From Chitinophagaceae bacterium (GTDB taxonomy: Bacteria > Bacteroidota > Bacteroidia > Chitinophagales > Chitinophagaceae): DNA of 64,000 nt. The translations under genes were made by a program, and so were the position numbers. Every line of letters starts with the position of its first letter. Positions within the stretch are counted from its first letter, which is position 1. The notes below the pieces were generated by a model. That model made no database searches. It had not been told where the DNA came from and worked only from the letters and a program-made list of their open reading frames with translations. The stretch is from positions 1 to 64,000 of the forward strand of contig CANGNA010000011.1 in assembly GCA_947455215.1 (NCBI GenBank), given 5' to 3'. Below are positions 47,354 through 54,392 of the stretch, one piece after another.

Positions 47354-47463
47354 ATGGTAAAAGTAACAGGAAAACAGCAGGTAAGGTTATAAACACCTCT
47401 GCTTTTAACCTCAATTAAGGTAGTCCAAAGATGTAAACACACTAACTATATCATCCCTACACA

Positions 47464-47496
47464 GTGTCACCCTGAGCCTGCCGAAGGGCGACACGG
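47464..47496. repeat. Hairpin repeat, left flank of the GIY-YIG cassette
   Basis: GTGTCACCCTGAG...AAGGGCGACAC folds into a 9-pair stem broken by one A-C mismatch. It abuts the stop codon of the GIY-YIG gene. An inverted copy is at 47855-47887 and another at 54362-54392. Confidence 0.85.
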
Positions 47497-47808
47497 TCAT
47501 GGGTTGTGCGATCTTTGAGTATATGATTTAGATAGTCTAAATAACTGCGCTTCATTGCCTGACATCAGTGCTTCCTTCTTTGCCCTACTCCATCCTTTTA
47601 TCTGTTTCTCCCGGGCAATTGCATCATCTATTACTCTGAAATATTCATAGTAAAGAAGCGTTAATGGACGACGGCCATGCGTGTAGCAGTTAACAATGTT
47701 TCCAGCCTGATGCTCTTCAAATCTCCGCTCCAGGTCATTGGTAACACCGGTGTAGTAAGAGCCATCAGCGCATAGAAGTATATAGATATAGTAGTTATGG
47801 TGTTTCAT
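47497..47808 (-). CDS. GIY-YIG nuclease (YhbQ-like, COG2827 type)
   Basis: 103 residues from MKHHNYYIYILLCADGSYYTG, chosen because it matches the family N-terminus; the open frame runs to 47865 through the repeat. YIY and YTG are the two signature triplets, then NDLERRFEEHQAG with catalytic Arg, and AIAREKQIKGWSRAKKEAL with catalytic Glu. The family cuts DNA; physiological roles of the small versions are unclear. The gene is enclosed by inverted hairpin repeats (47464-47496 and 47855-47887). It is a possible mobile or repeat-associated cassette. Confidence 0.9.
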   Translation of the reverse strand: MKHHNYYIYILLCADGSYYTGVTNDLERRFEEHQAGNIVNCYTHGRRPLTLLYYEYFRVIDDAIAREKQIKGWSRAKKEALMSGNEAQLFRLSKSYTQRSHNP

Positions 47809-47854
47809 GGCAGATACAAACAAAAGTAGGTCCTTATGCTTTATTAGCCCACCT

Positions 47855-47887
47855 CCGTGTCGCACTTCGGCAGGCTCAGTGTGACAC
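47855..47887. repeat. Hairpin repeat, right flank of the GIY-YIG cassette (inverted)
   Basis: Read from the other strand it matches the left copy in all but two bases. Those two bases face each other in the stem: C-G at the left is A-T here, so pairing is kept. Confidence 0.85.
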
Positions 47888-47952
47888 TCTGTAGTTTAGT
47901 TGTAAATGACGCCTCTGCTTTGTTGGCACTCACCCTCCACTTTCAACCTCCA

Positions 47953-54361: not shown

Positions 54362-54392
54362 GTGTCGCCCTTCGACAAGCTCAGGGTGACAC
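54362..54392. repeat. Third copy of the GIY-YIG-flanking hairpin repeat
   Basis: Same 31-bp hairpin as 47464-47496, in the orientation of 47855-47887, with two changes in its loop (C to T twice). No nuclease gene accompanies it. Confidence 0.85.

Follow-up and report, generated by a model that had tools for sequence, protein, structure and literature searches.

In the genome of a Chitinophagaceae bacterium, the gene for a small GIY-YIG nuclease lies between two inverted copies of a short hairpin repeat, and hairpins of one common shape bound the genes of related nucleases across bacteria. This suggests a system of a nuclease and its cognate repeat, arranged in a putative REP-like cassette. 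The reading which we prefer, and to which comparative sequence evidence lends a probability of roughly 0.6, is that the cassette comprises the nuclease and its own recognition repeat, that nuclease and hairpin diversify together, and that the hairpins spread in bursts. The gene was found in the window, by which the whole stretch of 64,000 nucleotides analysed is meant (GenBank assembly GCA_947455215.1, contig CANGNA010000011.1, positions 1 to 64,000 of the forward strand). The earlier note on this DNA had likened the layout to REP/RAYT systems, with a GIY-YIG nuclease replacing the RAYT; as anatomy this likeness is well supported, because the gene is flanked on both sides in 57 of the best 80 of 564 relatives, because absences are observed, and because stem changes are paired.

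The nuclease and hairpins of the window

The nuclease is free-standing, with 103 amino acids and one Pfam domain, its sole Pfam match being GIY-YIG (PF01541, E=1.2e-19); none of the NCBIfam models match it. Its closest solved structures, 1zg2 (E=1e-22) and 1ywl (E=4e-18), are both of UPF0213 proteins, and E. coli YhbQ and B. subtilis YazA belong to UPF0213/COG2827 as well. Y9, Y19, G21 and E67 are conserved in all 81 of 81 nuclease sequences and R29 in 80 of 81, and we take these residues to be catalytic. Alignment A1 consists of the window protein and 20 of the 30 loci from the order, omitting L036 (the window itself), L049, L052 and L059-L065. A GIY-YIG homing endonuclease, which would belong to an intron or intein and carry a separate DNA-binding domain, does not fit the free-standing, one-domain gene.

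Two inverted hairpins, at 47464-47496 and 47855-47887, had been described earlier together with a compensatory change in their stems, and the sequences bear this out. The left copy, on the plus strand, is GTGTCACCCTGAGCCTGCCGAAGGGCGACACGG and the right copy, read on the minus strand, is GTGTCACACTGAGCCTGCCGAAGTGCGACACGG; the two are identical except at positions 8 (C/A) and 24 (G/T), which stand opposite each other in the predicted stem, the C47471-G47487 pair of the left copy becoming A-T in the right. The A·C mismatch noted as common to both also recurs in the third copy, A6 and C26 being unpaired in the predicted fold of all three. That third, solo copy was located where it had been reported (54362-54392, minus strand) and reads GTGTCACCCTGAGCTTGTCGAAGGGCGACAC. 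The inverted match between left and right extends over 40 bp on each side (47457-47496 and 47855-47894) with three mismatches, and the stop codon at 47497-47499 directly follows the left copy, which had been said to abut it. Fold energies of the three window hairpins are modest compared with shuffles (z of -1.68, -0.83 and -1.12), and the case is therefore built on repetition and covariation, not on folding energy.

Table 1. Coordinates of the nuclease gene and of the hairpin copies in the window; the boundaries of the left unit are taken from an alignment of 84 copies.
Feature	Position	Strand	Remarks
Left hairpin unit	47457..47503	+	Hairpin 47464-47494; GTCA tag outside; 3' tail covers the nuclease stop codon
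GIY-YIG nuclease gene, UPF0213/COG2827-like	47497..47808	-	103 aa, ATG start
Right hairpin copy, inverted	47855..47894	-	GTCA tag outside; 46 bp from the nuclease ATG
Solo hairpin copy, same family	54362..54392	-	Two loop changes

A genome-wide search, which the earlier note had proposed, found the copies scattered: in the 4.2-Mb assembly there are 73 occurrences of the 15-base core CTTCGRCARGCTCAG and 0 of the reversed pattern, and a general hairpin pattern occurs 91 times against 1. The repeat is dispersed as a discrete unit, ctACagAGTGTCACcCTGAGCcTGTCGAAGgGCGaCACGGacatggGct, which measures about 49 bp and on either side of which conservation drops to background in 84 aligned copies, and 27 of 30 copies with gene context lie outside ORFs of at least 120 amino acids. 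Substitutions in the stem keep the pairing, the stem pair singled out earlier being Watson-Crick in 101 of 104 listed copies (CG 57, AT 32, GC 12), where copies were kept if two of three stem bases pair or if GTCA is present, and at least one is plainly a non-member. The stems CCC/GGG and CAC/GTG occur in source-genome copies with the loops CTTGT, CCTGT, CCTGC and CTTGC in all eight combinations, as if stem and loop had been reassorted or mutated repeatedly.

Most hairpins in the 91-copy listing are single, and five pairs lie within 100 bp of each other (hand count). One doublet is present twice on contig C28, at a spacing of 4.1 kb; the similarity between its two occurrences stops at the right edge and is blurred by other repeats at the left. 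Thirteen of the 104 listed copies hold a GTTTA-footed hairpin in the loop of another hairpin, some of the outer hairpins being degenerate (hand count).

Flanking hairpins across bacteria

The flanking was surveyed in the best 80 of 564 relatives from named genomes, selected by protein with hairpins disregarded and spanning Bacteroidota, Nitrospirae, Nitrospinota, Ignavibacteriae, Eremiobacterota, Candidatus Roseilinea and Fibrobacter. The shape scanned for, up to 320 bp from the gene, was a stem of at least 4 bases enclosing GAG-N5-7-CGA. It was found on both sides of the gene at 57 loci, on one side at 21 and on neither at 2, whereas control places in the same loci gave both sides in 0/400 and one side in 22/400, and shuffled flanks 0/240 and 6/240, respectively. 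The enrichment of hairpins beside GIY-YIG genes, put forward earlier as a check, is thus present. Inverted-repeat scoring that is blind to the motif gave at least 13 in 43 of these best 80 against 0 of 160, and at least 12 in 55 of 80 against 6 of 160. Hairpin density in the same set is 7.8/kb in the first 100 bp beside the nuclease gene and falls to 0-0.34/kb in all bins beyond 500 bp. The nearest hairpins are inverted at 56 of 78 loci, with the tags pointing outward as in the window at 45 and oppositely at 11, and run in the same direction at 22; the table of nearest hairpins covers the best 80 of 564 and 24 others, minus L041, L043 and L059-L065.

Among 45 viral relatives, none has this hairpin shape, a count made from one fixed gene end for nearly all loci. 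The single Enterococcus member of UPF0213/COG2827 inspected, in an operon, overlaps a tRNA methyltransferase gene and is without such hairpins, in contrast to the hairpin-flanked gene of the window. These negatives indicate that the flanking rule is a property of one part of the family and not of the GIY-YIG fold itself.

The structure of the flanking hairpins was examined by their stems. Among 134 distinct flanking hairpins taken with no stem filter, requiring TGAG...CGAA, positions 2-4 of the stem are paired in 123, 120 and 119, against maxima of 98, 58 and 61 in 1000 shuffles, with three or four pair types at these positions. The claim for the stem relies on these unfiltered counts, since a larger set of 167 hairpins was preselected for at least 3 paired stem bases. 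In the 167, the pair closing the loop is C-G in 148, G-C in 14 and T-A in 2, and TGTC stands at the foot of 88, as it does in the window copies. GAG...CGA is constant between the two helices of flanking hairpins, and GA facing GA in this core would, we presume, form a tandem sheared G·A motif.

Within a locus, the left hairpin resembles the right one in loop (0.34 versus 1.12 shuffled) and tag (0.15 versus 0.46) and, to a smaller degree, in stem (1.39 versus 1.76; n=59 loci). The type of tag tracks nuclease distance (Mantel r of 0.42 and 0.52; 0 of 2000 permutations), while loop (r of 0.11 and 0.06) and stem (0.11 and 0.11) do so weakly, and these matching tests correct for relatedness only in part. 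One genome, G035, carries one nuclease locus with CCTGAGCCTGTCGAAGG hairpins and two others with GGTGAG..CCGAACC hairpins, one of which has an AGTGAG..TCGAACT hairpin on its other side. Covariation shows the predicted hairpin structure, and loop and tag are shown by these comparisons to match within a locus.

Several loci lie beside this survey. At L371, on a Sphingomonas parapaucimobilis plasmid, three GTTCNNNCTGAGCGAAGTCGAAG-type hairpins (1368, 1433 and 1785) surround a GIY-YIG gene that sits between nrdR and an RNA methyltransferase gene, and the flanking rule may therefore extend to Alphaproteobacteria. At L374, on a Planktothrix agardhii plasmid, three GTCATTCTGAGTGAAACGAAGAATCTC hairpins (1258, 1356 and 1899) surround a GIY-YIG gene between MmeI-type restriction and DISARM drmA genes. 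At L373 (Methylobacterium aquaticum plasmid) and L370 (M. bullatum), the gene lies between long imperfect inverted repeats that contain CACCTCAGGATGAGG and are of another type, with inverted-repeat scores of 40 and 18.

Bursts, absences and mobility

The hairpin repertoire differs sharply between close relatives. A 14-base pattern that matches 72 times in the source genome matches once in one of ten genus-mates and not at all in the other nine; as judged from these genomes, the hairpins are shown to have been amplified in a lineage-specific burst. A close homologue of the nuclease is present in one genus-mate, G205 (71% identity; the next best has 52%), where its gene context differs from that of the window and GAGG-type hairpins lie on both sides. 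This loop type, switched relative to the source genome, is the commonest among the hairpins of G205, at 29 of 55, and is found in 0 of 91 copies in the source genome (hand count). In another genus-mate, a GIY-YIG gene of 40% identity (L082, G200:C26:58660-61890, at about 1000-2200) lies amid a dense array of another repeat, of GTCATTGCGAGCGNAGCGAAGCAACCTCAC type, which occurs on both sides; gene and array are possibly a further nuclease-repeat pair.

Cassettes and hairpins are present or absent at orthologous places. G207, G205 and G203 have about 210-245 bases between the same neighbours and no cassette; the neighbouring proteins are 39-73% identical in these three collinear genus-mates, which are too diverged for more than an absence in gene order to be stated for the source genome. 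A base-level comparison was made in a closer set, G035, G071, G082 and G089. Hairpin-nuclease-hairpin is carried by G035 and by G071, where the gene has an in-frame stop, whereas G089 has both hairpins and no nuclease at the orthologous place, with about 160 bases between the matched flanks as against about 460; G089 also lacks a neighbouring element of about 270 bp there. One bare hairpin of G035 amounts to 27 bp extra relative to hairpin-free G071, with no evident target duplication at this clean difference. G082 is likewise hairpin-free at this site, but rearranged nearby, and the direction of the change rests on parsimony. The empty sites that the earlier note had suggested looking for in relatives thus take three forms: the cassette-free genus-mates, the nuclease-free pair of hairpins in G089, and the 27-bp difference.

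For 13 single-hairpin sites of G035, the orthologous place was sought in three relatives. Four sites have both flanks in G071, two of which hold the hairpin, one seems to (judged by spacing and by match of hairpin type) and one lacks it; the other nine were left uncounted, having in G071 one flank, repeat matches only, or nothing. One site has both flanks in G089, and there the hairpin is absent with other sequence in its place. A clean base-level difference in hairpin presence is thus available from one site only. A hairpin of G082 has another hairpin inserted within it. In the left parts of L042 and L174 (G035:C5 and G071:C8), the end of a neighbouring gene that we take to be UvrA-like is duplicated over about 64 bp, in degenerate form, just after a solo hairpin element; this looks like a long target duplication, of the kind to be expected if the elements inserted as MITEs or insertion sequences do, and no second example was found.

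The mobility that had been proposed earlier is upheld in part, and none of the three outcomes which the earlier note had named as refuting it was obtained. The cassette absences, the one clean 27-bp hairpin difference, the nesting and the repeated doublet speak for movement, of which the nuclease would be a candidate driver.

Hairpins also occur in genomes without the nuclease. Among 29 genomes of the order with at least 5 cores, six have no match to the window nuclease, two of the six being 80-83% complete. A Pfam search of these six gave long GIY-YIG proteins and, in G102 alone, a small one as well, which is broken and has no hairpin of this kind next to it. These genomes fit a loss of the nuclease with hairpins remaining, and indicate that hairpins can exist without it; like the loci whose nearest hairpins are not inverted, they count against a simple form of the REP/RAYT-like reading.

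Possible mechanism, rival explanations and known systems

The preferred reading, a nuclease paired with its own recognition repeat, can be laid out as a sequence of conditional steps. The small GIY-YIG nuclease would recognise a short hairpin with a GAG...CGA core and, in the clade of the window, a GTCA tag at the foot, and would bind and probably cut it as single-stranded DNA, the GTCA foot being a candidate cut site. Hairpin copies, mostly inverted, bound the nuclease gene and would so hold it within a unit on which the enzyme can act. In the simplest mechanism, the cut at the foot would be made while DNA is replicated or taken up, and host repair or template switching may then copy hairpins to new places and drive their spread, leaving copies about 30-50 bp long scattered singly or in doublets. 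Hairpins would remain when the nuclease gene is lost, and orphan hairpins may be such leftovers. GIY-YIG enzymes are hydrolytic and are not known to form a covalent link between protein and DNA, which makes RAYT-type cutting and joining by the enzyme alone unlikely. A bolder version, at somewhat less than even odds, holds that GIY-YIG single-strand nucleases mobilise their cognate hairpins, which have a GAG...CGA core and a GTCA-type foot, as a second, RAYT-independent REP-like system across phyla, in which the cassette would be autonomous, the solo, doublet and nested hairpins non-autonomous, and the nuclease the missing enzyme for TGTC/CGTC REPs.

The repeats may instead be kept for use, as a checkpoint in which the nuclease cuts incoming single-stranded DNA at them and tunes natural transformation, a role in which Ssn of Neisseria has reportedly been described. 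The enzyme superfamily is the same and the cognate repeat stands in tens of copies, and the cognate pairing and the absence from 45 viral relatives fit it equally well; single-species bursts, nested hairpins, a doublet at two places and orphan hairpins are, however, marks of spreading elements, and we consider this explanation rather unlikely, while noting that checkpoint and mobility can both hold. Still less probable is that a Y1 (RAYT-type) transposase elsewhere moves the hairpins, with the GIY-YIG gene as a passenger between copies. The source genome has six Y1_Tnp matches. Of 198 genomes in the order, 153 have Y1_Tnp, the share being 26/29 where there are at least 5 cores and 127/169 elsewhere (p=0.06). 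The core occurs in 57 of the 198 and a nuclease match in 103, and the association with the nuclease is both local and stronger (23/29 with at least 5 cores against 80/169, p=0.001; both Fisher tests treat genomes as independent). The one Y1 gene inspected of the six, on contig C59, has its nearest family hairpin at least about 3 kb away and is not flanked by an inverted repeat (score 9), and the hairpin repeat has no GTAG head, so that a RAYT is not favoured as mobiliser.

Ordinary transcription terminators or RNA-stability hairpins at gene ends would account for copies lying mainly outside ORFs, as counted above, and for the window copy right after a stop codon. The window hairpins are nonetheless followed by no T run, and the same hairpin also stands upstream of the start. 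Stems vary around a loop core that does not, the types of loop and tag are tied to the nuclease locus, and density drops steeply away from the nuclease gene in the best 80 of 564. We regard this explanation as very improbable.

Comparison with known systems places the nuclease and its repeat near REP/RAYT and apart from it. In REP/RAYT, as set out in PMC2817692 and PMC3116915, the enzyme gene lies between inverted palindromes with a GT(A/G)G head, and solo and doublet copies are found. Flanking inverted palindromes, scattered solo and doublet copies, complementary stem changes and co-diversification are shared with those systems (PMC2817692, PMC3116915). The enzyme here is GIY-YIG, unlike the Y1 tyrosine transposase related to IS200/IS605, and the foot is GTCA instead of GT(A/G)G, with a constant GAG...CGA core between two helices. 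The system is, in its predicted working, REP/RAYT-like and is not a REP/RAYT, for it has neither of two defining features, a Y1 enzyme and a GT(A/G)G head on the repeat. A RAYT-associated REP of another bacterium, GTAGG...GGGCTGAGCTTGCGAAGCCC..., listed in Table 1 of PMC2817692, has a loop much like the GAG...CGA core, either by chance or through a shared hairpin design.

CGTC-tagged REPs, including the Neisseria dRS3, have stems of 8-9 bp, loops of 4-5 nt and a CCA tail, and CGTC/TGTC REPs were reported in 2013 as lacking a dedicated transposase (PMC3733652). The hairpins considered here resemble those described there in a tag that is often TGTC, in AT at the stem start and in their occurrence in several phyla including Bacteroidetes, and differ in that most flanking hairpins have a clear stem of about 4-5 bp and a core of 11-12 nt. 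A relationship between the TGTC-footed hairpins and those CGTC/TGTC-tagged REPs (PMC3733652) is possible.

The literature search, in which few subscription papers were covered, found no paper on a pairing of GIY-YIG nucleases with hairpins. The closest known system would be the Ssn nucleases with their cognate repeats, which are reported (Chenal et al., Nat Commun 2025) to be site-specific single-stranded DNA nucleases and to have numerous homologues that each go with a sequence of their own. The likeness lies in the GIY-YIG superfamily, the small protein and the cognate repeat in many genomic copies. What may set the present system apart is that the hairpins bound the gene itself, that the core of the hairpin and its covariation have been worked out, and that repeat spread and cassette absence are both in evidence.

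Many bacterial genomes contain dispersed short hairpin repeats, and the question of their enzyme is now testable from loop and tag. The rule found here ties one hairpin shape to a neighbouring GIY-YIG nuclease, so that each nuclease brings its predicted substrate with it; if true, it would set a chemically different case beside REP/RAYT co-evolution and would offer a route to nucleases with predictable hairpin specificity.
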